Shown: positions 49,416 through 64,000 of the stretch, in pieces
Layout: each line of letters starts with the position of its first letter
Position numbering within the stretch: position 1 is the first letter of the stretch
Source: Bdellovibrio reynosensis
Lineage (GTDB): Bacteria > Bdellovibrionota > Bdellovibrionia > Bdellovibrionales > Bdellovibrionaceae
DNA: 64,000 nucleotides
Direction: 5' to 3'
NCBI RefSeq assembly: GCF_022814725.1
Contig: NZ_CP093442.1
Location: forward strand, 1,984,001 to 2,048,000
Made by a program: the position numbers and the translations under genes
Notes under the pieces: generated by a model
Database searches by the model: none
What the model saw: the letters and a program-made list of their open reading frames with translations, nothing else
What the model was told of the DNA's origin: nothing

Positions 49416-49461
49416 ATGATTCAGCCTTGACTTGGTCAGGGCTTTATTAGCATTTAAGCCC

Positions 49462-50415
49462 ATGATTTTTCGCGGGCCTTTTTTTATTCTAATACTTCTG
49501 CTGACCTTTCAAGTTTCAGCAGCGCCAGCTTTAGAATGGTGGGCAGCCAGTGCCACTGATGTCATGCAGGCCCCGTGCAAGACCCAACGCCCGCCAAGTC
49601 CCGATTCAATTTTAACGGCCTTACAGGGAAGCGGTTTACTTGTTACAAAAAAAGTAAACGGTATTACCTTCAAAAATGAAAAAGCTGATTTGGTTCAGTT
49701 CTTTACCGATCTTCACAAATTAGATCTTAGCTTACGAGATAAACCGGAACTTAATTTTTCATCAAACTGCGATAAGGTTTTGTGCGCAGTAAAAGAAATC
49801 TATGGAAATACGGAAGGACCGCAGCTTCTGTATCTGCTAAAAACTTTCGGTTTTAATGGTTCTCACCTTCGTTCCAAGTATGCATCCGCTTGGCACAGTG
49901 ATGAGCTGAACGAAATTTTACAGGCTCTGTTTGATTATCCGCTATCGCTTTATCCCGTTTCCTATAATAAGCGCTTGGTGCATTTCACTCGTGGAATGGG
50001 ATTTGGCCCGATGGTCATTGCTAACGCAAGCATTGAAATTTTCGATCCCTGGAATGATCTTAGTTTCCCGGAACGTCAGCAAACTTTTTTGCATGAGTTG
50101 GGACACACACTTTCATACAAATCAAAGTTAGACGTTTCCGAAGAATGGTTAAAAGTAGCTGGTTGGAAAGCGTATAAAGCTCAAAAGAATAAAATTTCAT
50201 ACACTCAGTATCAGTTGATAGATCCATCAAAAGCCGTTTCAGAATATGGGATGGAAAACCCGTCAGAGGATTTCGCAGAAACCGTGGTCGCTTATCGCTT
50301 TACAGGTGCTAAATTAAAGACTCACCAGCCACACAAGTATTCGTTTATGAAAAACAAAGTTTTCTATGGCCAAGAGTACTTGCCCGAAACTCAGTGTTCC
50401 TTGAGTTTTCGCTAG
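49462..50415 (+). CDS. Secreted HELGH zinc metallopeptidase-like protein
   Basis: The 317-residue product has a signal peptide (cleavage near VSA-A) and FLHELGHTLSYKSKLDV in the C-terminal half; the third metal ligand is probably the Glu in NPSEDFAETVVAY, giving a gluzincin-like site. Four to five Cys residues suggest disulfides. Family not recognised. The start at 49462 opens the signal peptide; the ribosome site is weak. Confidence 0.78.
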   Translation: MIFRGPFFILILLLTFQVSAAPALEWWAASATDVMQAPCKTQRPPSPDSILTALQGSGLLVTKKVNGITFKNEKADLVQFFTDLHKLDLSLRDKPELNFSSNCDKVLCAVKEIYGNTEGPQLLYLLKTFGFNGSHLRSKYASAWHSDELNEILQALFDYPLSLYPVSYNKRLVHFTRGMGFGPMVIANASIEIFDPWNDLSFPERQQTFLHELGHTLSYKSKLDVSEEWLKVAGWKAYKAQKNKISYTQYQLIDPSKAVSEYGMENPSEDFAETVVAYRFTGAKLKTHQPHKYSFMKNKVFYGQEYLPETQCSLSFR

Positions 50416-50622: not shown

Positions 50623-51816
50623 ATGAGACAAAGACAACGAATTTTAACAGCAATCATGATGTTCGTTTCATGTGCTACTCAAGCACAGGGACCTGTATTG
50701 CATTCGTATGTTGTTAAAGATGGAGAATCACTATCACAAATTGCTGACCGTATTCGCGGTGGTCACACTTATGGTGCTGGCCAAAACCTTGAACGCTTGT
50801 TGAAAGTAAATCCCTTCATTGCTGATCAAAATCAAATTCTGACTGGGGTAGAGATTCGCATTCCTGAATGGGGTACGGATCTTACTGCAGCCATGGCAAA
50901 TGTAACCAATGTTGTCGTTGAAAAAAGAATTCCTGCGCAAACCGAAGAACCGACTTCAGAAGTAGTAACCCATGAAAAGGTTGTTATTCAGGAAATCGTT
51001 TCTAAAGATGTCGTTATTGCAGAATCCGCCGTGGGTAAAAAGCCAGTTGTTGTGGAAAATACAGTGATTGCGCAGAAACCTGCTCCGATAGTTATTCCTC
51101 AGACACAACCAGATCCAAGTCGTCGCTTGCCTTCCCTATTGGTTAAAGAACAGGAGGAAGAAATCAATCATCGCGCCGAATTTTTTGGTGGTTATCAATT
51201 CTCCTCCATCAATGCCACTGATAAAACAAGTGCTTCAAAGGCAGATTTAAACTCATCACAGGATTTTACTGCAGGAATGCGCTGGCTTCAGTTGTGGAGC
51301 GACTCATTTTCAACTTCATTTGATTTTTCCGCGCGCAGCATTGGTATTGTTCCTTTAACAAGCTCTTCAAAAACCCTAAGCAATACCAATCAGACATTGA
51401 TGGCATTGCAGTTTTCTTTGAACAAAAATATTTTTGCAAACTCGCGCTTGGGTTTTAACTTTGGTTATTCCCACGAACTTTTTTTGCACGGTGTTTCTGC
51501 GACGGAGGTTTCTTTAGATATTGCAGGTGTTCCGAAAGCCGAAATCACCTTTAAGCAAGCTTTGCTTAAAAAAGGAAAAACCCAACTTGAATTCGGTTGG
51601 GGCTATAGTTACCTAGGTCCTTCATCTACTGACACCTACACGATTGAAAGTGGCCAAGCCTATTCAGCCGCGATGGGTCTTCGCCACTCAAAATTGAAAG
51701 CGGAATTAGGATACAAACAAAGAACGCAGAACACGTCCTTCATGGATGTCGGCGAAAGCAACGTCTTTGGAATTCTAACTTACAGTATAGATCTCTTTAA
51801 AGAGGAGGAACGATGA
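50623..51816 (+). CDS. LysM-domain protein with beta-barrel-like C-terminus
   Basis: The 397-residue product has a signal peptide (cleavage near TQA-Q), a LysM domain (about 28-90: YVVKDGESLSQIADRI ... GVEIRIPEWG) that would bind peptidoglycan, a Val/Glu-rich linker (about 100-185), and a C-terminal region (about 190-397) with alternating strands like an outer-membrane barrel. It would tie the outer membrane to the wall. It overlaps the giant lipoprotein by ATGA, so the two are coupled. The start at 50623 is uncertain because the ribosome site is weak. Confidence 0.78.
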   Translation: MRQRQRILTAIMMFVSCATQAQGPVLHSYVVKDGESLSQIADRIRGGHTYGAGQNLERLLKVNPFIADQNQILTGVEIRIPEWGTDLTAAMANVTNVVVEKRIPAQTEEPTSEVVTHEKVVIQEIVSKDVVIAESAVGKKPVVVENTVIAQKPAPIVIPQTQPDPSRRLPSLLVKEQEEEINHRAEFFGGYQFSSINATDKTSASKADLNSSQDFTAGMRWLQLWSDSFSTSFDFSARSIGIVPLTSSSKTLSNTNQTLMALQFSLNKNIFANSRLGFNFGYSHELFLHGVSATEVSLDIAGVPKAEITFKQALLKKGKTQLEFGWGYSYLGPSSTDTYTIESGQAYSAAMGLRHSKLKAELGYKQRTQNTSFMDVGESNVFGILTYSIDLFKEEER

Positions 51817-54800
51817 AATTCATCTTACTTCTTTCTTTAGTCTTTGCTTTAGCCGGTTGTAAATCTAGTTCAACGATCGACGAATCATTTCTTGGTGGAA
51901 TTGCGATTTCACCAAGTAAAAGTGCCGTTGTTGCTTCTGACAGTAGTTTGCTTTCAGGCACTGCGATCACCTTAACTTTGGCTTTGCGTGATCAGCATGG
52001 CCAAGTTTTTTGGTACGAAGGCAGCAACCCCACCGTCACCTTTTCAACTTCAGGCGGAACCAGCACTGGTCTGTTTAGTGATGTCATTAATAACGATGAT
52101 GGAACTTTCACTACGACCTTTGCTGGAGTGAATGCCGGCACACCAACGAATATCATTGCCTCTGTCGATGGTGTTCCGTTGACTTCAACGGCACCTGCTA
52201 TTCAAGTACTGCCGGGTAATTATTCACTTGCTCATTCGTACGTCAGTCTTTCGGCTGCATCGATAACTTCGGGATCATTTGTCACCGCAACTTTTCACAC
52301 CTACGATACGTCAGGAAACCCGCTTACCAGTGGCGGCTTTGTCGTGTCCTTCAGTCAAAATGGTGGAACAAGCACTGGTACGTTTAGCGCAGTCACTGAT
52401 AACGGTGATGGGACGTATACGGCGACGTTTACTGGCGGTGTTATGGGAACAGCCACCTCGATTCGTGCTGCCATCGCTGGACAACTTATTACGAGCGCAC
52501 ATCCTACGGTCACCGTGACCCACGGACCTGCTTCTCAATTAGTGTTTGCAACTCAACCTTTGGGGAATGTTGCCCCGGGTGTAAGCTTGCCAAGCCAGCC
52601 TATTGTGCATATCAAAGATGCTGCTGGAAATATGGTGACCTCGGGCCCGGATGCCACAGCTGATATCACCCTGTCACTTTCTTCAGGCACGGGTGCCTTA
52701 GCGGGAACAACTACGATCACTTCCGTTGCCGGAGTGGCAACATTCACAAATATTTCTGTTAACACAAAAGGCTCTGGTAAAATTATAACGGCAACTAAAG
52801 AAAATACGCTTGTTTCAAGTGGGACAGGTGCTATTTCTTCTGCCTCTGATAGTTTTCTGATTCATCCACCTGCTCCGGGTGCATTCACGATTGCCAGTGC
52901 AGTGGCCGGCGCTTCTTCAGTAGTGCTTTCTTGGAATGCTTCAAGCGAAGCCACTAGCTACACAGTAAAATATGGAACGGTCTCTGGGACTTTTGGCACG
53001 ACGGTATCAACTTCAGCGACTTCGCCGACGACGATTTCTTCCCTTACGCCTGGAACGACTTATTATTTTATGGTTGAAGCAAGCAATGTCACTGCGACAA
53101 CAAGCTCAACGGCGCAAGCTTCAGCGACTCCCCTTTCTGCATTTTCAATTTCAAGCGTCACCGTAGATACTGGCAATAAACTTAAAGTGGCTTTTGGCAC
53201 ATCAACGGGCTCTACAAGTTACACTGTTAAATACGGAACTTCGACGGGAAATTATTCATCTACTGCTTCGACGGCAGCAAGTTCTCCCTATGAAGTCAGT
53301 GGCCTTACCGGTGGGACCTCCTACTATATCATGGTAACTGCTGTGAACTCTTCAGGTTCGGTTAATGCCACGGCCGAAGCGGTTGGAATTCCGATTAGCG
53401 CCTTTTCCACGACCTCACTTAGTTCTGGCGTGGGCACCCTTTCTTTAGCATTTAACTCTGTAGCAGGAGCCACAAGTTACGATGCCATCTATGATACTTC
53501 GTCAAAGACAGCGGCGGATTCATACGCCTCCGCTAGCACAGGGGTTACTTCACCAGCAGTTGTCAATCTTGCTGCAGGAACAAGTTACTATTTCCGTGGT
53601 CGCGCTAATAACCCCTATGGTTCCGTCGTTTCTACGAACGAACTTTCTGCGGCTTCTTATCAAAACTTTACTTTAAGCATTCCTTTCACATCGGGAACTT
53701 CCGCTAGTTACACATCAAGCAGCGGAACTAACGTAGAAGTCACTTCTGCTGGATATGCGCGCTTAAAGCCTGCTCCGCAAGTAGATAGTGATGATTCAGA
53801 TACAGGCTTTGGCTCCCCTGCTGTTTTAACTGGTGTGCAATGGGATTCCTCTATGAATGTGGCACGCTTAAATACGACAACCAACAACTCTCAGCTTGAT
53901 GCCACTTGGGGGCCTGACTGGAATAATCTTGTTGGCTACTGGCGTTTGAATGGAACTGTTGGTGCTCTTGCTGCTTCAAGCACCATTACAGCGACTGTTG
54001 GCGCTAATTTAACTTCCTCAGCTACGGCCGGAATGGCGTATGCAAGTTCTCAGTTCAATCAAAGTCTGACTTTTGATGGCGTAGATGATTATCTTTCTGG
54101 CGGAAATATACACGACATCGGAACTGGTGGACTGACTGTTTCGGCTTGGATTAAAACTTCCACACACCAAAACAGTCGCATTGTTTCTAAAAGCAGTGCC
54201 GGTGCGGATGATGGTTGGTTCATTGGAACTGTCAGCGGTACTATTACTTCAAATACCGTCACTCAACACAACTATTTGACGGTGGGCCTTGATGGAGTTA
54301 CGTCGGCGACCCTTATAGGAAAATACGACGACGGACGCTGGCATCATATAGTCGCAAGATTTAATCGTACTAATGGATTAGCCACAGTCTTTCAAGACGG
54401 CCGAGTTTTAGGAACTGTTAATATTTCAACGAAAGCGGGCGTCAACGTTACTAGCGGCGGAATTTTTTCTATCGGCAGCCGTAACGGCACCGACCGTTAC
54501 TTTAACGGCAACATCGATGAAGTCGCACTATGGAGCACGGCCTTAACTGATACTGAAATCTTAAGTATTTATTTCCGTCAGCAAGCTAAATATTCGGGGC
54601 AAATTTTATCGCGCATCATGGATGCGCAAGCCACAGGTTCAAGTTTAACGAACTGGACAAATATAAATGTAGCTACAACGATGCCATTTTTTAAAGAGCT
54701 TCCAAGTAAAACTGTTAATGAAAGTACCACAGGCTATTCTTCATTCACAGGTTCTGGCTACGGTACGGACCTTGCCGGTTTATGGCACTTTGACGAAGCC

Positions 54801-56090
54801 TCTTGGGCTGGCCCGGGTACAGCGGATGTTCTTGATTCTTCGGGAAACAATCGTCATGCGACTTCAACGGGTGCAAGTAATGTTACGAATGCCCGATTTG
54901 GCAGAGCTGCGGCCTTCAATTCAAATAGTCAATTAATCTCAGCGACAGCAAGTAGCGATTATGTTTCAGCTGCCAATCAAACTACGACAATGAGCGCGTG
55001 GGTTTTCCCCCACCGCTACATTATTAATAATCTTGAATCGCGAATCCTGTGCCTTATCAATTCAGCGGGAACTGGAAGTTCTTTTGCTTTTGGTTTTGGA
55101 AACGGTAATAAGCTTGGCATTTTTTACGGCACTAGCGGCGTGTATCATTGGTCAACGTCTTCACTACCCACGTTTACCTGGAGCCATGTTGCTGTTACGT
55201 ATGATGGCAGCTGCTATCAACTTTATATAAATGGGGCTGCCAATGGCAGTTGTCTAACGGCGGCCTTGAATGCCCCAGGATCGGGCGCTGCTATTATTGG
55301 TAACTATACTTCAGGAAATAACCCCCTTTACGGCAACCTGGATGAAGTCGCGATTTGGAAAAGAACTTTATCGGCAGCCGAAATTCATCAACTGTACCGT
55401 CGCGGAATAAACAGAATCAAATACCAGGTGCGCACTTGTGCTAACAACGACTGTTCGGATCAAGCCGGAAACAGCCAAGGTTGGAAGGGTCCTGATAACA
55501 CTTCAAGCACATATTTCTCGGAATTATTTAATACGACCAACAACGTCGCTGATGGAACTATCAGTGGTTCTGCTTCATCGATGGTGTTTAGCAACTTTGG
55601 TGCTCTTTCACTTTCAAGCAACCGATACTTCCAGTACCGCTCGATTCTTGAAAGTGACGATACCAATACGGGATGTACTTACAGTTCGGCAGCTTCGTAT
55701 TGTTCACCTGAAATTAAGTCGGTGACGGTGGGACCGAATCACTATTCTGCTAACGAATCTATAACGACCAGTGCCGCATCGGTTACTTCTGCTTATGTAT
55801 TTATTAATACGAACGGCTTTTCTGCAACCTTAGGTGCCAATGGCTGCAGCAATGGCTCTTCTTACGCATTAAGCCCCGATGGAACAAATTTTTATTACTG
55901 GAACGGCAGCACGTGGGCTGCATCCACAGACTCTACAACAGCCAACGATTCAAGCACCATGGCTGCAAACATCAACTCTTTCCCGTCGGTCATTGGCACG
56001 GGAACACTAAAAATCAAAACCTACCTAACCTCCACAGGCACCTCTGCCTGCGAAGTAGATAGCCTTTCAGTCACCGGCCAAAAATACTAA
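51813..56090 (+). CDS. Giant surface lipoprotein with Ig-like, FN3-like and LamG-like domains
   Basis: The 1425-residue product has a lipoprotein signal (LAGC). In order: two invasin/filamin-type Ig repeats (about 28-230, with DNGDGTYTATFTGG-like strands), one more Ig-like domain (about 230-345), three FN3-like domains (about 350-610, each with TSYTVKYGT-type and TTYYFMVEASN-type strands), then two LamG/concanavalin-like domains (about 700-930 and 985-1190) sharing GGLTVSAWIKT/TMSAWVFPH, HHIVARFNR/SHVAVTYDG and GNIDEVALW/GNLDEVAIW, and a Ser/Thr-rich end. It is a likely adhesin or glycan-binding protein, coupled with the LysM-barrel gene. Confidence 0.85.
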   Translation: MKFILLLSLVFALAGCKSSSTIDESFLGGIAISPSKSAVVASDSSLLSGTAITLTLALRDQHGQVFWYEGSNPTVTFSTSGGTSTGLFSDVINNDDGTFTTTFAGVNAGTPTNIIASVDGVPLTSTAPAIQVLPGNYSLAHSYVSLSAASITSGSFVTATFHTYDTSGNPLTSGGFVVSFSQNGGTSTGTFSAVTDNGDGTYTATFTGGVMGTATSIRAAIAGQLITSAHPTVTVTHGPASQLVFATQPLGNVAPGVSLPSQPIVHIKDAAGNMVTSGPDATADITLSLSSGTGALAGTTTITSVAGVATFTNISVNTKGSGKIITATKENTLVSSGTGAISSASDSFLIHPPAPGAFTIASAVAGASSVVLSWNASSEATSYTVKYGTVSGTFGTTVSTSATSPTTISSLTPGTTYYFMVEASNVTATTSSTAQASATPLSAFSISSVTVDTGNKLKVAFGTSTGSTSYTVKYGTSTGNYSSTASTAASSPYEVSGLTGGTSYYIMVTAVNSSGSVNATAEAVGIPISAFSTTSLSSGVGTLSLAFNSVAGATSYDAIYDTSSKTAADSYASASTGVTSPAVVNLAAGTSYYFRGRANNPYGSVVSTNELSAASYQNFTLSIPFTSGTSASYTSSSGTNVEVTSAGYARLKPAPQVDSDDSDTGFGSPAVLTGVQWDSSMNVARLNTTTNNSQLDATWGPDWNNLVGYWRLNGTVGALAASSTITATVGANLTSSATAGMAYASSQFNQSLTFDGVDDYLSGGNIHDIGTGGLTVSAWIKTSTHQNSRIVSKSSAGADDGWFIGTVSGTITSNTVTQHNYLTVGLDGVTSATLIGKYDDGRWHHIVARFNRTNGLATVFQDGRVLGTVNISTKAGVNVTSGGIFSIGSRNGTDRYFNGNIDEVALWSTALTDTEILSIYFRQQAKYSGQILSRIMDAQATGSSLTNWTNINVATTMPFFKELPSKTVNESTTGYSSFTGSGYGTDLAGLWHFDEASWAGPGTADVLDSSGNNRHATSTGASNVTNARFGRAAAFNSNSQLISATASSDYVSAANQTTTMSAWVFPHRYIINNLESRILCLINSAGTGSSFAFGFGNGNKLGIFYGTSGVYHWSTSSLPTFTWSHVAVTYDGSCYQLYINGAANGSCLTAALNAPGSGAAIIGNYTSGNNPLYGNLDEVAIWKRTLSAAEIHQLYRRGINRIKYQVRTCANNDCSDQAGNSQGWKGPDNTSSTYFSELFNTTNNVADGTISGSASSMVFSNFGALSLSSNRYFQYRSILESDDTNTGCTYSSAASYCSPEIKSVTVGPNHYSANESITTSAASVTSAYVFINTNGFSATLGANGCSNGSSYALSPDGTNFYYWNGSTWAASTDSTTANDSSTMAANINSFPSVIGTGTLKIKTYLTSTGTSACEVDSLSVTGQKY

Positions 56091-57207: not shown

Positions 57208-57222
57208 ATCCCCTTTGGGGAT
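57208..57222 (+). promoter_or_regulatory. Leader hairpin before the peptide gene
   Basis: ATCCCC-TTT-GGGGAT is a perfect 6-bp stem followed by TTTCT, 67 bases before the ATG at 57290. It could be an attenuator or a protein-binding leader element; its GGGGA could also serve as a ribosome site for an in-frame ATG at 57230. Confidence 0.4.
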
Positions 57223-57289
57223 TTTCTATATGGGACCAGCCTTTGCAGAAACATTCGCAACGTGGTCAGCCCACGGGGAAAGGAAGCCT

Positions 57290-57463
57290 ATGAAGAAACA
57301 GGAAAAACAAAAAGTAGAATTGTGTTTTCGAAGTAAAAAAGCAGTGATGTTTTCAGCCGAGGGAGAAGCCGTTGAGATTTCATCACAAGAGCAACTTGAA
57401 GCACTGCTTGCAGAACTTGAAGTTGAACTAACTGCTGAAACTGAACAAGAGAAAAGCAATTAG
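57290..57463 (+). CDS. Candidate precursor peptide of a radical-SAM-modified RiPP
   Basis: The 57-residue peptide is highly charged, with a Lys/Arg-rich start (to about residue 17), one Cys (residue 12), a central segment AVMFSAEGEAVEIS, and an acidic helical end with EQLEALLAELEVEL. It resembles no precursor class I know. It stands directly before two radical-SAM genes, as precursors do. AAAGGAAG lies 4 bases before the ATG at 57290. An in-frame ATG at 57230 after GGGGA would add 20 residues (MGPAFAETFATW...). Which residues are modified, and whether the peptide is a scaffold or a final product, cannot be told. A small RiPP-recognition-like fold (strands plus helix) is not excluded. Confidence 0.65.
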   Translation: MKKQEKQKVELCFRSKKAVMFSAEGEAVEISSQEQLEALLAELEVELTAETEQEKSN

Positions 57464-57473
57464 TCAGAATATA

Positions 57474-57498
57474 AGGGGTGTCGGTTACCGGCACCCCT
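57474..57498 (+). promoter_or_regulatory. Hairpin between peptide gene and first maturase
   Basis: Arms 57474-57484 and 57488-57498 form an 11-bp stem with one G-U pair and a 3-base loop, 10 bases after the peptide stop. No T-run follows. Such elements between RiPP precursor and enzyme genes act as partial terminators or 3' stabilisers that raise precursor over enzyme mRNA. Confidence 0.7.
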
Positions 57499-57514
57499 AA
57501 CTTTGAGGCATAGA

Positions 57515-58714
57515 ATGTTTAAGCATATTAAAGACGAAAATTCAGATTTTTATTTTAATCCAATAACACTCGAAATCAAATACCAGGAGCCAGTCGAAAA
57601 TACGACCTATGAAGAAGCATTCGAACACGCGCACGAAGTGACTGGAAACTATATTCAGAAAAATATTCTGGTAACGCGTGCTCGTATCGTCCTTACTGAA
57701 CAATGCAACTTTCGATGTAAGTACTGTTTCGTGATGGATCAACACGCGAAACTAGTAGACATGCCTGAGGAAAATATCGATAAAGTTTGTGACTTTTTAG
57801 AGAATTATGGTGATCCCGAGGGACTTCTTTTGCAGCTTTTTGGTGGCGAACCCTTAACAAAGCGCCATTATATTCAAAGAATTTTAGAGCGTTTCAAAAA
57901 CTCTCCTCTTTATGATAATTTGCGTTTTGAAATAAACAGTAACGGATCGCTGGTACGACGCCTTGATTTTGAAGCATTTGAAGAGCATCGAGATAAAATT
58001 CTCTTCACACTATCCCTTGATTCCGACTTAGAAGAGCTGAACGATAAGTACCGTGTTCTCATAAGTGGTCGCGGCACTTTTAAGCTTACTCTTGAAGGCA
58101 TACAGCAATTAATAGAAAATAACTTCGCAGTTAATCTCTTGTATACCCCTATGAATGAAACTCTTCCGCGTTTACCCCGGTTAGTAGCATTCGCTAAATC
58201 TATTGGGGTAAAACAATTGAGTGTTAATTCTCCCCAACCAGGTAAAGGTGATTGGGAGGTAAATGGAACGCTACTTTACAAAAGTCTAAAAGCAGCGAGA
58301 AAAGTAGCAGAAAAAATAGGTTTCGACTTTGCAAGCGAACTCGACAAAGTTGACTACGTGTTATCCGAAAAAATTCCTAATATTGGACCATGTACTTCGC
58401 TTTCTGGAATGGCTATTTCCATTTCTCCCAAAGGTCGCATAAGTAATTGTATCGTTAACTGGAATGATCACAAAGATCTCACCCAGGGCATGAGCGAGTT
58501 TGACATTAACAAAGCAAGAATATTCAAAAACCGTAGAAAGGCCTTCGCGCTAGAATGTCGACAATGTATCGCTCATAGTGTATGTGGGGGCGCTTGTGGA
58601 CTTGAGCTAGCTCTTGGCAATACGGGACCAAGTAGCGCAATCGATAACAAGTGCCAATTCTATCGCTTGGCTGTCACTGATTCAGTGACAACACAGAATA
58701 GGAAAAAAGCTTGA
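57515..58714 (+). CDS. Radical SAM/SPASM peptide maturase
   Basis: The 399-residue enzyme has an N-terminal extension (about 1-55) that may bind the leader, the radical-SAM cluster motif CNFRCKYC (Cys64, 68, 71), FGGEP near residue 110 for SAM binding, and a SPASM domain with Cys at GPC, ISNC, and CRQC (348, 351), VCGGAC (357, 361) and KC (380), enough for two auxiliary [4Fe-4S] clusters. Such enzymes install thioether or C-C cross-links or epimerise residues in peptides. The ATG at 57515 is preferred over TTG at 57503, with GAGG upstream. It overlaps the next gene by ATGA-type 4 bases. Confidence 0.92.
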   Translation: MFKHIKDENSDFYFNPITLEIKYQEPVENTTYEEAFEHAHEVTGNYIQKNILVTRARIVLTEQCNFRCKYCFVMDQHAKLVDMPEENIDKVCDFLENYGDPEGLLLQLFGGEPLTKRHYIQRILERFKNSPLYDNLRFEINSNGSLVRRLDFEAFEEHRDKILFTLSLDSDLEELNDKYRVLISGRGTFKLTLEGIQQLIENNFAVNLLYTPMNETLPRLPRLVAFAKSIGVKQLSVNSPQPGKGDWEVNGTLLYKSLKAARKVAEKIGFDFASELDKVDYVLSEKIPNIGPCTSLSGMAISISPKGRISNCIVNWNDHKDLTQGMSEFDINKARIFKNRRKAFALECRQCIAHSVCGGACGLELALGNTGPSSAIDNKCQFYRLAVTDSVTTQNRKKA

Positions 58715-59484
58715 TAAATATTGATACACTTTTTTTAGAAATCAATTCCGTATGCAACATTCATTGCAAATACTGCTTTTATGAAAAGGGTGAATTATCT
58801 CGCTCCTCAAGTCGGATCTCACCAACTGCATTGAAAGTCTTTTTCGAGTCTTTTGGGGAAAATCTGCAGATTCAATCGGTAAGCTTAAGCGGTGGAGAAA
58901 TTCTTCTACATCGAGAAATTGAAGATCTGCTTAAGACCGTAAGGCAATTCGTGCCACACGTTCTAATCATGACAAATGGGACGCTATTAAGTTCAACAAC
59001 CATTCAAATGCTAGAAAAATATGTTGATGAGGTTCACGTCAGTCTTGATAGCATAACGTCATCTTATCATGAGAAACAAAGGGGGTTACATAGAAAAACT
59101 CTGAATGGTCTAGAGCTTCTTCGAGCTTCGCGTATTCCTATGAAAACTATTGTAATGACCGTAAGCAACGGAAATAAAGACCAAATTGACGAAGTGAGAA
59201 AATATGCAAAAGAGTATAGTTTTCTATTTCAAATGCACCCCGTAGATAATTTCAACTCGAGTACAATTAGGAGACCCAACACCTGTAAGAGCCTAACAAA
59301 ATCTATTATGATTAACGCCAAGTCTCAAATATATCCATGCTTTCATCTCCAGACAGATGCATATCTTCTTGGTGATTTGAATAACTTTAATTTTCAAGAT
59401 TTTTTATCTCGCCGGAAAGACATCATAGCTTATCTTTTACCAAAACTGCCTTGTTACAGAAATCGATGCTGGCCTTTGATATGA
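58711..59484 (+). CDS. Second radical SAM enzyme with short Cys-containing C-terminus
   Basis: The 257-residue protein has CNIHCKYC (Cys15, 19, 22), the SLSGGEILLHREIEDLL segment and a core of about 200 residues. The end has Cys in NTCKSL, IYPCF, LPCY and NRCW, consistent with one auxiliary cluster (twitch-like). It is short but complete. The start codon is TTG (ttgataaat) at 58711, overlapping the stop of the first maturase by four bases. Two different radical-SAM enzymes suggest two successive modifications of the peptide or of one residue. Confidence 0.88.
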   Translation: MINIDTLFLEINSVCNIHCKYCFYEKGELSRSSSRISPTALKVFFESFGENLQIQSVSLSGGEILLHREIEDLLKTVRQFVPHVLIMTNGTLLSSTTIQMLEKYVDEVHVSLDSITSSYHEKQRGLHRKTLNGLELLRASRIPMKTIVMTVSNGNKDQIDEVRKYAKEYSFLFQMHPVDNFNSSTIRRPNTCKSLTKSIMINAKSQIYPCFHLQTDAYLLGDLNNFNFQDFLSRRKDIIAYLLPKLPCYRNRCWPLI

Positions 59485-60389
59485 ACAACAAAGCCTTTCA
59501 GGAGTATTTAGATTTCATGCGCTTGCGCGACTGGCCTCACTCTTCAAAAGAAGCAGCTGCAGAAAAAAGGTCCATATTCTATGACTTTGGAGACTGGCAT
59601 CCCAAAGTACGAACTGGTGCCTGCATCGTTACCACGTCTGACTGGGAAAGGTGGCGCAAACAAACACAAGATTATCTACGTAGTAGTCTTTGGGAATTTG
59701 GGCTCCGTGACCCCGAACAAGTTACGAAAAAATGCCTACAACTTATTCGGTCATGGAATTTTGAAGAACCGTTTTACAATTTGAATCAGAAATTTGATTT
59801 CAATAAGTTGATTATTGAACAAATAGAATTCCGTTCGGATATTGAAGGCAACAAATTGAAGCATCAATTACCTGGGATGTGTTTTGCGGAAGAATCATCA
59901 TTAATTCTTACTGATTACAGAATGGCACTTGTAGAGAATAGAATACTCGTTCGGAACGATAATTTCTTGCTCTCACATTTACATCATGAATGGTATCCGG
60001 GACATGTATTACAAATCGGCATCTTAGAAACGGACATAGACAGTCTTAACCCGTGTTGGATTGAGGGCTTAGCCACCTATTATGAATTAAAGAATGTAGC
60101 GCCTGACCAGAGACCAAGAGCACTAACACGCGTTCGAGAACTGCTGATTGAGACCATTTTTGTTCTTAAATTGATTCAGGGTTTAATCAAACCAAGTGAT
60201 CTTGTGAAATTTTATCTAGGATTTAATAAAAATACTGAGTGGGTATACAACAAGATAAACAATATTTATATCAACCCGGTTTTCTCGATTCGATATGGCG
60301 CTGGACTTGCGCTTGCTCACGAGTGGATTACTTCTCATCCGACACAAAATCCAGAAGAAGTCTTGAACCGAATTCAGGAGGAATTATGA
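59481..60389 (+). CDS. DUF885-like zincin peptidase
   Basis: The 302-residue protein has HHEWYPGHVLQ (His169, Glu170, His175) and WIEGLATYYELK (Glu195), the two signatures of the DUF885 family (HExxPGHxxQ and EGxAxYxE), seen as gluzincin metallopeptidases. It is about half the length of typical DUF885 proteins, lacking most of the N-terminal part. A role in cutting the modified peptide is likely by position. The start at 59481 forms ATGA with the preceding stop; a longer form would run 30 bases into that gene. Confidence 0.8.
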   Translation: MNNKAFQEYLDFMRLRDWPHSSKEAAAEKRSIFYDFGDWHPKVRTGACIVTTSDWERWRKQTQDYLRSSLWEFGLRDPEQVTKKCLQLIRSWNFEEPFYNLNQKFDFNKLIIEQIEFRSDIEGNKLKHQLPGMCFAEESSLILTDYRMALVENRILVRNDNFLLSHLHHEWYPGHVLQIGILETDIDSLNPCWIEGLATYYELKNVAPDQRPRALTRVRELLIETIFVLKLIQGLIKPSDLVKFYLGFNKNTEWVYNKINNIYINPVFSIRYGAGLALAHEWITSHPTQNPEEVLNRIQEEL

Positions 60390-61579
60390 AAAAAACAAAA
60401 AGTGCCTTATCACTAGCATATTTCTTAATTTTTGGAATAGCGTTTGCTGATATGATAATTAGCCCAATTTTAATAATTCATATTAGAAACGGTCTAGGAA
60501 TCGACAATAATGGCATCGCCTGGCTAATGAGTATTGGGTGTATCTTGATTGCTCTGCTAGATTACCCGACTTCTCACTTCGCGGATCATTTTAATAAGCT
60601 TCTAGTTCTGGCGATAGGCACATGTTGTTTAGCTTTCTCAATGGTCGGATTGTGGCTACTTCCTTCAAAACATTTCTTAATCGCTTCGCTTGGATTAAAA
60701 GCTTTTGGCTTAGCGAGCTTATCAGGCACTATCTCGGCATTCGTCTTTGATAGCATTCAAGGTGATTCTGATAAGGACCAACTAATAAAAAGATTTATCA
60801 CACGAGGACAATTGGTGCGCCAAAGTGGAATCGTTCTAGCAATGATAATTGCTTCCAGTTTAATATATTTCAACCAAAGCCATCACATTTTTCTAATTAG
60901 CGCCTTAGTTTATATCTCATGTGCGATTTTAAGCACGAAGCGATTGCTTGTGTCCGATATAAAATGGAGATCTTCAAAGAAGATTATTGAAGTTGTTAAT
61001 CCACTACCACTTTTGTCCTATTTAGTAGAAGCATCAAAAAACGGCGCTTTCAGATGGGCACTTTTTCTAAATCTGTTATCAGGTGTGGGATTTACTATTT
61101 ATATAACATATTGGCAACTAAGTGCAGAAGCTGGAGGACTTAAATGGGCACTCGGCCTACTTACTTCACTCGGGTTTGCAGCGAGCTTTGTCGTTTCTTA
61201 TATTTTAGACAGAATTAGTACCGACAAAGCGCAACTATTTCTTGGAGTGGGCATTGTTTTATTTGCATTCGGAACTTTCTGCATGAGCATTTGGAGTTTC
61301 AGCTTTATCTTTGCTGTCTGTGGTTTCCAAATTTCCTTAGTCGCAGGAAGTGCAATTGTTATGGGGGAATCCTACAGGGCGTGTACAGACGAATCAAATA
61401 GCGCAAAGTTTTTTTCTCTTACATCTACCGGATCAGAGATGTTTTCCAGTTTTATTTTAGCCCTGTTTTCTTCCGTTGCCCTATTCAATGATAGTCCAAC
61501 ATCTGCATTTGCGACACTTCTACTACCTTTCGCCGTGATCCTTGTACTTGCGGTTAAGCGCTCCAAGGAAATCTCATGA
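60386..61579 (+). CDS. MFS transporter, probable exporter
   Basis: The 397-residue protein has about 12 membrane helices and the MFS motif A-like loop after the second helix (DYPTSHFADHFNKLLVL). No ATPase is linked, so it would use proton or ion antiport. The start at 60386 has CAGGAGG and forms ATGA with the previous stop. In the cluster it probably exports the mature product or the toxic end form. The gene looks more AT-rich than housekeeping genes here. Confidence 0.88.
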   Translation: MKKTKSALSLAYFLIFGIAFADMIISPILIIHIRNGLGIDNNGIAWLMSIGCILIALLDYPTSHFADHFNKLLVLAIGTCCLAFSMVGLWLLPSKHFLIASLGLKAFGLASLSGTISAFVFDSIQGDSDKDQLIKRFITRGQLVRQSGIVLAMIIASSLIYFNQSHHIFLISALVYISCAILSTKRLLVSDIKWRSSKKIIEVVNPLPLLSYLVEASKNGAFRWALFLNLLSGVGFTIYITYWQLSAEAGGLKWALGLLTSLGFAASFVVSYILDRISTDKAQLFLGVGIVLFAFGTFCMSIWSFSFIFAVCGFQISLVAGSAIVMGESYRACTDESNSAKFFSLTSTGSEMFSSFILALFSSVALFNDSPTSAFATLLLPFAVILVLAVKRSKEIS

Positions 61580-62064
61580 ACCTACGCGAGATTACAGCTG
61601 AACTAAACAGTTTATTCATCAATTACAAATCCACATTTGGCGAACCAGACTTCGAACCTCCGACTTATGCTGCATCTATTCCTGCCGAAGGAATTACTGT
61701 GAACCGCCGTCTTATTCTGTTGAACACTAAAATAGCCCATCCCCTTTTTACAAAAAGCGCATTAATAGAAAAAGCAAAGCTTCAGCTAGTTTATTTTCAT
61801 GAACTAAGTCATTGCTTACCGAAACTTCAATCCAATTATGAGGAGGAGTGGAGGGCCGATTTCCGTGCGGTTTCCATGCTTCGTCAAAACCCTGAAACTC
61901 ACGATCTAGTTTGGGAAATGATCGCTCAGCAAGCAAAAAAGACAAGATCTTTTATTAGTCGAATCAACAAACATGAACCTTCGGAACACACTATTGATGA
62001 ACTACGACAAAACTTGGAGATTTTAACTCGATTAGTAGCGGAGATGAAGAGTGGACTGCTTTAA
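61576..62064 (+). CDS. Small HELSH metallopeptidase-like protein
   Basis: The 162-residue protein has FHELSHCLP (His75, Glu76, His79) and then EEEWRADFRAVSML (Glu91, Asp95 region), the layout of small cytosolic gluzincins of the IrrE/M48-like kind, where the second Glu is the third metal ligand. No signal peptide. It overlaps the MFS gene by ATGA. It may process the peptide, or act as a regulator; the family was not recognised with certainty. Confidence 0.7.
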   Translation: MNLREITAELNSLFINYKSTFGEPDFEPPTYAASIPAEGITVNRRLILLNTKIAHPLFTKSALIEKAKLQLVYFHELSHCLPKLQSNYEEEWRADFRAVSMLRQNPETHDLVWEMIAQQAKKTRSFISRINKHEPSEHTIDELRQNLEILTRLVAEMKSGLL

Positions 62065-62092
62065 AGTGTGGGCCGGCGCTGGCGGAGCTATT

Positions 62093-62701
62093 ATGACACC
62101 AAAAGGAAGAGAGTTGCGCGAGAAACTTATCTCTCTATTGAGTGAGGCATTTAAAACGAACTTAATTTATGAGCTTCCATTACTTTTATCACCGGTCGAC
62201 TCTACGGCTTCAATGTATAAAATTTTCAGCATCACCACAGCTTTCCAAAAGACATACCATTTGATGTCAGACCCGCGACAATTTATCGAGAATTTATGGC
62301 TTTCAGAAGGTAGGCCCCAGGTATCCTATGTCTATTCGTGTCGCGTAGTTCGTGATATGAAGACTCGTCCGAGCAGAAACCAGTTTTCGGAGTTTGAATT
62401 TATCGGCGCAAGTTGCTTCACTCGCAAAGTTGATTTAAATTTTATCGTACAAACTCTAATGTCTAAACTTAGTATCCTCTTGGGAAATGCATCTGTTCGG
62501 TGTCTTCACTCGACCAGTTCAAAGGGTGACTTGTTACTTTACGTTGATATAGAGTCTGTTATTTACGAAGTCGGACACATACAACTGACCAGACTCAGAA
62601 AATTAGAATCGATGGATTTTAGTTACTTCCATATCACCTACTCAGTAGGACTGGCACGTTTCGCTAGGTTAAAGCAAATTCTGGAAGCGACTAGGGTATG
62701 A
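62093..62701 (+). CDS. Class II aminoacyl-tRNA synthetase-like core protein
   Basis: The 202-residue protein reads like a stripped class II synthetase catalytic domain. A motif-2-like stretch YSCRVVRDMKTRPSRNQFSEF (Arg87, then FSEFEFIG) is preceded by a YHLMSDPRQF segment and followed by a GNASVRCLHS stretch, and a motif-3-like SVGLARFARLKQIL (Arg189) lies near the end. By eye it is closest to PheRS-alpha or other class IIc enzymes. No anticodon domain is present. It may aminoacylate or amidate the peptide, or be a decoy or resistant target. ATG at 62093 has GGAG upstream; an earlier GTG is at 62051. Confidence 0.5.
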   Translation: MTPKGRELREKLISLLSEAFKTNLIYELPLLLSPVDSTASMYKIFSITTAFQKTYHLMSDPRQFIENLWLSEGRPQVSYVYSCRVVRDMKTRPSRNQFSEFEFIGASCFTRKVDLNFIVQTLMSKLSILLGNASVRCLHSTSSKGDLLLYVDIESVIYEVGHIQLTRLRKLESMDFSYFHITYSVGLARFARLKQILEATRV

Positions 62702-63642
62702 AATCTCAAGGTCTAATTAAAGTCACTGATATGTTTGAGTCGAAAGATGAAAATTTAGAACGCCTTGGCGATCTTCAACTTAAACGTCTGAGTAGCGACG
62801 CTTTCTTTCTTGGAATCGGTAATAAATTCCAAAAAGATGACCATCTTATGGCGCTAAAAGGGGGATATGAAGCAATTCGTCACATCGATAAAGTTAAGGA
62901 ATTAATTAAAGTTGGTGTTAAATCGCTAAGCGGGCATAGTGATCTTACAACGACTTTACTCGCTCTAATGCATTCTCCAGTTCACGCCATACATGGCCCC
63001 ATGTTTCTTCCTGATTTCACAGAATCAAAAGGAGTCGAGTCAATCACATGGGACTCCTACTCTAACTTGCTTCATTCCATAACCATAAATAGGACAGTTC
63101 ACTCTCAGTTCTGGCGACCGCAAAAACAGAACTTGTTTGTGGATTGGTTTTCTAAAGAAAGATTTAGAGATGTTCGTCCTTCAGTTTCTCCGCGAGAATT
63201 TCATTTAGAAACTAACATTACTCGTAAATTCTGCGGAATAGCTATTGGTGGAAACCTTTCGATTTTCTTGAGACAATGCGGAACCCATTATTTAAACGAA
63301 TTCTACTTGCAGCAAAAAAATATTTTGTTTTTGGAGGAGTGGTCATCGCCAATAGCCGATGTTTTAAACATGCTTTATTACTTAAAATTAAAAGGGACTT
63401 TAAAAAATACTAATCTGATCTGCTTTGGCTCAATTTGTCCGACCGAGTACTCGACATCAATTTATGATCACTCGATTTTTAAAGAGATTGCAGATCTGGT
63501 TGGGGTGCCATGCGTGTTCGGAGTTAATTTTGGCCACGTTCAACCACAGTATTCATTTTTATTAGGAAAGATGACTCAGGTTGAAGTTTCGAGCTCCGAG
63601 ATAGAGGTTCATCAGCGCTTAGATTCGCAGAATTTCAGTTAG
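62698..63642 (+). CDS. S66 serine peptidase (LD-carboxypeptidase/MccF-like)
   Basis: The 314-residue protein matches peptidase family S66: ALKGGYEAIRHID, the nucleophile elbow LSGHSDLTT (Ser81), HAIHGPMF, GIAIGGNLSIFLRQCGT, the catalytic Glu in ILFLEE (Glu213) and His in VNFGHVQP (His280). Family members cut L,D-peptide bonds in peptidoglycan or, as MccF, cut the acyl-sulfamoyl bond of microcin C and give immunity. In a peptide cluster with an aminoacyl-tRNA-synthetase-like gene, immunity or product release is more likely than wall recycling. ATGA overlap with the gene before. Confidence 0.88.
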   Translation: MKSQGLIKVTDMFESKDENLERLGDLQLKRLSSDAFFLGIGNKFQKDDHLMALKGGYEAIRHIDKVKELIKVGVKSLSGHSDLTTTLLALMHSPVHAIHGPMFLPDFTESKGVESITWDSYSNLLHSITINRTVHSQFWRPQKQNLFVDWFSKERFRDVRPSVSPREFHLETNITRKFCGIAIGGNLSIFLRQCGTHYLNEFYLQQKNILFLEEWSSPIADVLNMLYYLKLKGTLKNTNLICFGSICPTEYSTSIYDHSIFKEIADLVGVPCVFGVNFGHVQPQYSFLLGKMTQVEVSSSEIEVHQRLDSQNFS

Positions 63643-63662
63643 AAAAAGTGTCTCATAAAAAT

Positions 63663-63696
63663 AAAAAAACCCACAGGATACCCTCTGGGTTTTTTA
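63663..63696. terminator. Bidirectional terminator between the peptide cluster and recA
   Basis: AACCCA (63668-63673) pairs with TGGGTT (63686-63691), with AGG/CCT inside, an A-run before and a T-run after. It would end the peptide operon on the plus strand and recA on the minus strand. Confidence 0.85.
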
Positions 63697-63719
63697 TTTC
63701 TTTAAATTTATTTGGGAAA

Positions 63720-64000
63720 CTAGTGTTTACCCTTTTTAGCTTTTTTTGGTGCTGCTTCTTCGGCTTCGACTGGTTCTACGCCTTCGTGGTCTTCGCCATT
63801 AGCGCCATTTGCTTCAACCAAAAGCTTGCCGATACCGTTAGCTGCTAAGATTTTGTTTCTTAGTTCAACTTTGTATTCTGGGTGTTCTTTAAGGAAGTTT
63901 TTAGCTTGGTCACGGCCTTGGCCCATGCGCTCGCCATTCATAGAGAACCAAGCACCTGATTTTTCAACCAAGTTTGCAGTCACTGCTAGATCCAAGATAT
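63720..64000 (-). CDS. recA: RecA recombinase, C-terminal part
   Basis: The window contains the last 92 residues or so of Rec[21 protein letters not shown] followed by [20 protein letters not shown], then an acidic tail ending in a Lys-rich [13 protein letters not shown]. The tail is longer and more basic at the very end than in E. coli. The frame is open to the edge of the window, so the gene continues outside it. Confidence 0.96.

Follow-up and report, generated by a model that had tools for sequence, protein, structure and literature searches.

A radical SAM operon of Bdellovibrio reynosensis with a candidate precursor peptide and putative microcin C-like export and immunity genes

Several described peptide systems resemble parts of the locus analysed here. 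In microcin C production (mccABCDEF), the MFS protein MccC is the exporter and MccF confers self-immunity by cleaving the carboxamide of the product (PMC9239234); MccF homologues occur outside microcin C clusters too (PMC12250964). In the mcc operon of Escherichia coli, mccA and mccB are separated by a hairpin terminator that favours a short transcript and raises the level of mccA mRNA (PMC6495379). The ranthipeptide maturase PapB acts on Cys-Xn-Asp motifs with n = 0-6, and also on Glu (PMC9413430). Pearlins come from scaffold pathways in which a single modified amino acid is cut out (PMC10885120). Finally, HExxH proteins of RiPP clusters can be oxygenases, not peptidases (PMC12636437).

Operon layout and closest described systems

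The window, by which we mean the whole 64-kb stretch analysed, corresponds to positions 1984001-2048000 of the 3.58-Mb single-contig genome of B. reynosensis. Near its right end lies an operon of eight genes and 6.4 kb (57290-63642) with a peptide gene in first place. The gene, the operon and the hairpin behind the gene can be read directly from the sequence, as can the radical SAM, MFS and S66 identities of the encoded proteins. The features, in order, are:

57230..57289, plus strand: alternative N-terminal extension of 20 codons, probably untranslated, coding signal absent
57290..57463, plus strand: gene of the likely precursor peptide, 57 aa (translation, codon statistics, ribosome-binding site GGAAG, composition)
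57474..57498, plus strand: hairpin between peptide gene and maturase 1, with an 11-bp stem, a 3-nt loop and no T-run
57515..58714, plus strand: radical SAM maturase 1, 399 aa, CX3CX2C and complete SPASM
58711..59484, plus strand: radical SAM enzyme 2, 257 aa, truncated SPASM (C-X17-C, CX4C), Pfam Radical_SAM 2.3e-18
59481..60389, plus strand: DUF885-like zincin with HHEWYPGH and EGLATYYE, weak Pfam DUF885 match in the zinc-binding region (E 0.06)
60386..61579, plus strand: MFS transporter, Pfam MFS_1 6e-16, probable exporter
61576..62064, plus strand: second HExxH protein, 162 aa, HELSHCLP, zincin-like
62051..62701, plus strand: 216-aa protein, class II aminoacyl-tRNA synthetase-like minimal core, with a GTG start at 62051 or ATG at 62093
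62698..63642, plus strand: MccF-like S66 peptidase, Pfam S66C 6.8e-19
63668..63694 (approximate), plus strand: terminator-like hairpin, CCCACAG...CTCTGGG followed by T6, closing the operon before the convergent recA

The seven enzyme genes overlap consecutively by 4 nt (once by 14 nt), while a gap of 51 nt separates the peptide gene from the first maturase. This gap holds the most stable 27-nt stretch on the plus strand of the window, the hairpin at 57474-57498 (minimum free energy of 57460-57520, -22 kcal/mol; z -3.5), which resembles the mccA-mccB hairpin and might act as that one does, favouring a short peptide transcript. No Rfam family was found within the operon. The C-terminus of recA occupies the minus strand at the right end of the window (63720-63998, stop at 63720).

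The arrangement recalls microcin C in its short precursor gene at the front, its hairpin lacking a T-run, its MFS exporter (here a member of MFS_1), its MccF-type S66 peptidase and an adenylating-type enzyme, the last here a candidate only. It departs from microcin C in the length of the precursor (57 aa against 7 aa) and in possessing radical SAM enzymes and HExxH proteins, two of each, but no ThiF-like MccB, the adenylating candidate having instead a predicted class II synthetase-like fold. Likeness to PapB-type ranthipeptide clusters resides in maturase 1, whose nearest model is PapB, and in a peptide with a Cys and many Glu; in contrast to those clusters, the operon has a second radical SAM enzyme, and its peptide has one Cys, no Asp and no Cys-Xn-Glu with n <= 6. 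With scaffold pathways (pearlins, PQQ, mycofactocin) the locus shares a small precursor, modifying enzymes and peptidases, and the product could likewise be a modified amino acid. Unlike them, it lacks a PEARL ligase and a Tyr in the peptide, and it comprises different peptidase families, an exporter and an MccF-like gene.

The peptide gene and its start

A sequence-only reading of this DNA had described the frame 57230-57463 as a precursor-like peptide of no known class, with a charged start, one Cys, a small-residue/Glu segment and an acidic end. Both elements are borne out, since translation reproduces this layout and no family match was found for the peptide in Pfam, NCBIfam or PADLOC. From 57290 the frame yields MKKQEKQKVELCFRSKKAVMFSAEGEAVEISSQEQLEALLAELEVELTAETEQEKSN, 57 aa, with a Lys-rich N-terminus, a single Cys (C12), an A/S/G/E segment and an acidic, helix-like C-terminal part. 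The peptide is devoid of Tyr, Trp, His, Asp and Pro, has two Phe and many Glu, and its first acidic residue beyond C12 is E24 (n = 11).

With codon statistics derived from 43 long ORFs in other parts of the window, 57290-57460 reaches a coding score of +19.5 bits (0.34 per codon), which may be lifted somewhat by the high Glu and Lys content. None of 124 shadow ORFs of 50-90 aa (maximum 0.30) and none of 1000 stop-free shuffles scores as high, and GC by codon position is strongly biased (0.61/0.28/0.25). Stop-free frames made up 1% of the shuffles of the peptide frame, and the length of the ORF is by itself unremarkable. The earlier reading had left two starts open. The 20 codons at 57230-57289 score -0.7 bits, a value equalled by 152 of 1000 shuffles, with GC of 0.55/0.65/0.50; because they show no coding signal, the 77-aa start at 57230 is unsupported and was rejected, whereas 57290 is favoured. 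Anti-SD pairing is alike for both (-5.7 and -5.5 kcal/mol), but the GGGG preceding 57230 sits within a small hairpin, ATCCCCTTTGGGGAT (57208-57222). The codon statistics, the GGAAG site and the first place in the operon support a real gene that starts at 57290 and encodes 57 aa. The small hairpin is followed by a T-rich stretch just upstream of the 57230 ATG, and could be a leader attenuator.

A search of 369 genomes of the phylum found no homologue of the peptide and gave 14 weak matches in all (E 0.007-0.08), both readable ones being PNPase segments. The resemblance, between residues 3-40 and the segment VELVIAASENAIMMVEGEAQEISEEEMLEAI of distant Bdellovibrionota (E 0.007 and above), is probably due to chance.

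Enzymes, transporter and peptidases

Maturase 1 (Pfam Radical_SAM 5.6e-16) carries a SPASM region of the form CX13GX4C, CX2CX5CX3C and a last Cys. Its NCBIfam neighbours among peptide maturases are PapB, CbpB and CcpM, with cyclophane maturases matching too; PapB ranks at the top (2.9e-26), although at 92.5 bits it remains below the cut-off of 340. The top PDB match is 5wgg (2e-13), a SCIFF maturase. Radical SAM maturases commonly adjoin their precursor gene, and here a short coding ORF lies beside a radical SAM/SPASM gene, as a RiPP precursor would; the peptide is likely the substrate of both radical SAM enzymes. The PapB ranthipeptide layout itself was rejected, for want of a Cys-Xn-Asp/Glu motif with n = 0-6 and because of the missed cut-off. 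The earlier statement that a single Cys excludes a multi-Cys ranthipeptide accordingly holds as regards the layout (one Cys, no Asp, E24), although the nearest maturase model is PapB and a single thioether is conceivable.

The putative DUF885-like zincin scores 13 bits against a Pfam cut-off of 32.4, while preserving the HExxPGH and EGxAxYxE motifs. It is the sole DUF885 match in the whole genome (E 0.09), and its structure model is too poor for use (pLDDT 34). For the second HExxH protein no reliable family match was found in Pfam, NCBIfam or PADLOC. The MFS protein, judged by its family, is a probable exporter.

Among solved structures the S66 protein comes closest to MccF, whose entries are its top PDB matches (6e-10), and it fits MccF better than LdcA-type entries; its top plasmid matches are S66 peptidases of E. 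coli. In an alignment restricted to relatives whose locus was in plus orientation, the S66 fold is accompanied by a conserved Ser/Glu/His triad and by a segment between the nucleophile and GGNL as long as in MccF, so that the protein is MccF-like. Its N-terminus is about 40 aa shorter than that of E. coli MccF, which counts against an antimetabolite reading, as does the result that no MccB/ThiF-like enzyme was found among the operon proteins with Pfam and NCBIfam.

In the 216-aa protein, a motif-2-like RVVRD...QFSEFE and a motif-3-like SVGLARF were noted ahead of any fold search. A single-sequence model (pLDDT 46) retrieved PheRS alpha and PylRS as Foldseek leaders, with E 2e-3 to 1e-2, and gave a VIA Z of about 8, near background. 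The PheRS sequence profile was not significant against the protein, and no better than against shuffles. Since this profile fails and the model is of low confidence, we hold with moderate confidence that the protein might represent a minimal class II aminoacyl-tRNA synthetase catalytic core. The predicted fold and the motif 2/motif 3-like residues would be common to PheRS/PylRS-type cores and to amino acid:carrier protein ligases (Bll0957). In contrast to these, the operon protein has only 216 aa, is without tRNA-binding parts and bears no significant sequence relation to them.

Proposed pathway, rival readings and distribution

An exporter combined with an MccF-like peptidase suggests that a toxic product leaves the cell and that the producer is immune to it. 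Together with the hairpin and the synthetase-like protein, the MccF-like character of the S66 protein speaks for such an exported antimetabolite, not for a cofactor; none of these three features figured in the sequence-only reading. We therefore tentatively put forward a radical SAM scaffold pathway yielding an exported antimetabolite, with microcin C-like export and immunity, a proposal whose chances we place slightly short of even. Against it stand the failure to find a peptide homologue that would reveal a conserved core, the low-confidence model behind the synthetase-like assignment, the MccF homologues known outside microcin C clusters (PMC12250964) and the oxygenase role that HExxH proteins can have (PMC12636437). 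From the gene content we infer that the 57-aa peptide would serve the operon (57290-63642) as its ribosomally made substrate, the hairpin behind its gene providing for more peptide than enzyme. The two radical SAM enzymes would modify it, the first probably by way of its SPASM clusters and in the segment around C12-E26, and the metalloproteins would cut the modified part out or trim it. The carboxyl of the amino acid or short peptide so released might be adenylated by the class II synthetase-like protein, for coupling or detoxification; the MFS protein would export the product, and the MccF-like peptidase would protect the producer by hydrolysing whatever stays in, or re-enters, the cell. A Trojan-horse or antimetabolite version modelled on microcin C appears improbable: here the two radical SAM enzymes would build a warhead on the 57-aa scaffold, the class II synthetase-like protein would take the place of the ThiF-type MccB in activating or ligating the excised warhead, and the MccF-like protein would give immunity.

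In an alternative scenario, which we consider rather unlikely, the locus encodes an ordinary leader/core RiPP: one radical SAM cross-link, for example between Cys and an alpha, beta or gamma carbon or as a cyclophane built on Phe, would be set on a peptide of some 10-25 residues with no single amino acid excised, the zincins would remove leader and follower, and the S66 protein would be a processing or immunity peptidase. The proximity of maturase 1 to PapB and its matches to cyclophane maturases agree with this, as do the one Cys and two Phe available in the peptide and the two HExxH proteins, which could be leader peptidases; yet E24, at n = 11, falls outside the PapB range, and the synthetase-like protein is left without a role. 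The HExxH proteins might on the other hand work on the peptide as alpha-ketoglutarate/iron oxygenases, a role known from pfl/pos and chl clusters, given that such enzymes of radical SAM RiPP clusters were first mistaken for peptidases (PMC12636437). This would be a surprising outcome, for the first of the two keeps the DUF885 pattern HExxPGH...EGxAxYxE and neither has an NCBIfam match.

A cofactor-type scaffold, PQQ-like or mycofactocin-like and serving a cellular enzyme, would account for the radical SAM enzymes with peptidases and for the general similarity of maturase 1 to the SPASM family. PQQ chemistry joins Glu and Tyr, and mycofactocin chemistry Val and Tyr. A peptide without Tyr rules out both, and these layouts were rejected on composition; in addition, exporter and S66 genes are present, the operon has no dehydrogenase, and the zincin is absent from all other Bdellovibrionota searched, which makes a cofactor role very unlikely. 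The suggestion of a cut-out scaffold in the sequence-only reading thus survives in its general form, excision being possible with two HExxH proteins and an S66 peptidase, and fails for the PQQ and mycofactocin examples. Least credible is the view that the small ORF is open by chance or encodes an attenuator leader peptide instead of a substrate. The strong hairpin behind it and the lack of any homologue found would fit, but its codon signal exceeds that of every shadow ORF, and the position beside a maturase is the one expected of a precursor, the other operon genes overlapping so that no other free-standing place exists inside the operon.

Should the antimetabolite proposal hold, a predatory bacterium would combine in a single pathway radical SAM peptide chemistry with export and immunity of the microcin C type, and the operon may yield a new kind of antibiotic-like molecule. 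Going by the MccF-like protein, the product would contain a carboxamide or aminoacyl bond open to cleavage; the synthetase-like protein, for its part, would be unusual among RiPP enzymes. The papers found to name Bdellovibrio, RiPPs and radical SAM enzymes together mention Bdellovibrio once each.

As far as sequence comparison tells, none of the present searches turned up the same combination of genes. The 369 phylum genomes contained the DUF885-like zincin in one case, only distant family members of the S66 protein and the second radical SAM enzyme, and no homologue of the 216-aa protein (weak matches with stops only); four loci around such matches showed no similar cluster. Neither maturase 1 nor radical SAM enzyme 2 had a match in viral contigs, and no homologue of the zincin or the 216-aa protein was found in plasmids. 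A pattern search for maturase 1 in GTDB species representatives gave no match, and a zincin motif search of viral and genome contigs, based on an alignment whose rows other than the zincin were written by hand, matched 591 stretches with none confirmed, pattern searches of this kind missing diverged relatives.

The genes adjacent to recA (63648-63998; loci L033-L041) differ between Bdellovibrio relatives, which indicates a variable locus. Taken with the zincin occurring in a single genome of 369, this would be more in keeping with an accessory metabolite than with a cofactor. A HELGH protein at 49432-50415 resembles one adjoining recA in a relative (L041), with a shared ANASIE and a similar context. 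Upstream of the operon, 51813-56090 encodes a 1425-aa lipoprotein-like repeat protein, in which fibronectin-like and LamG-like repeats were recognized by eye.
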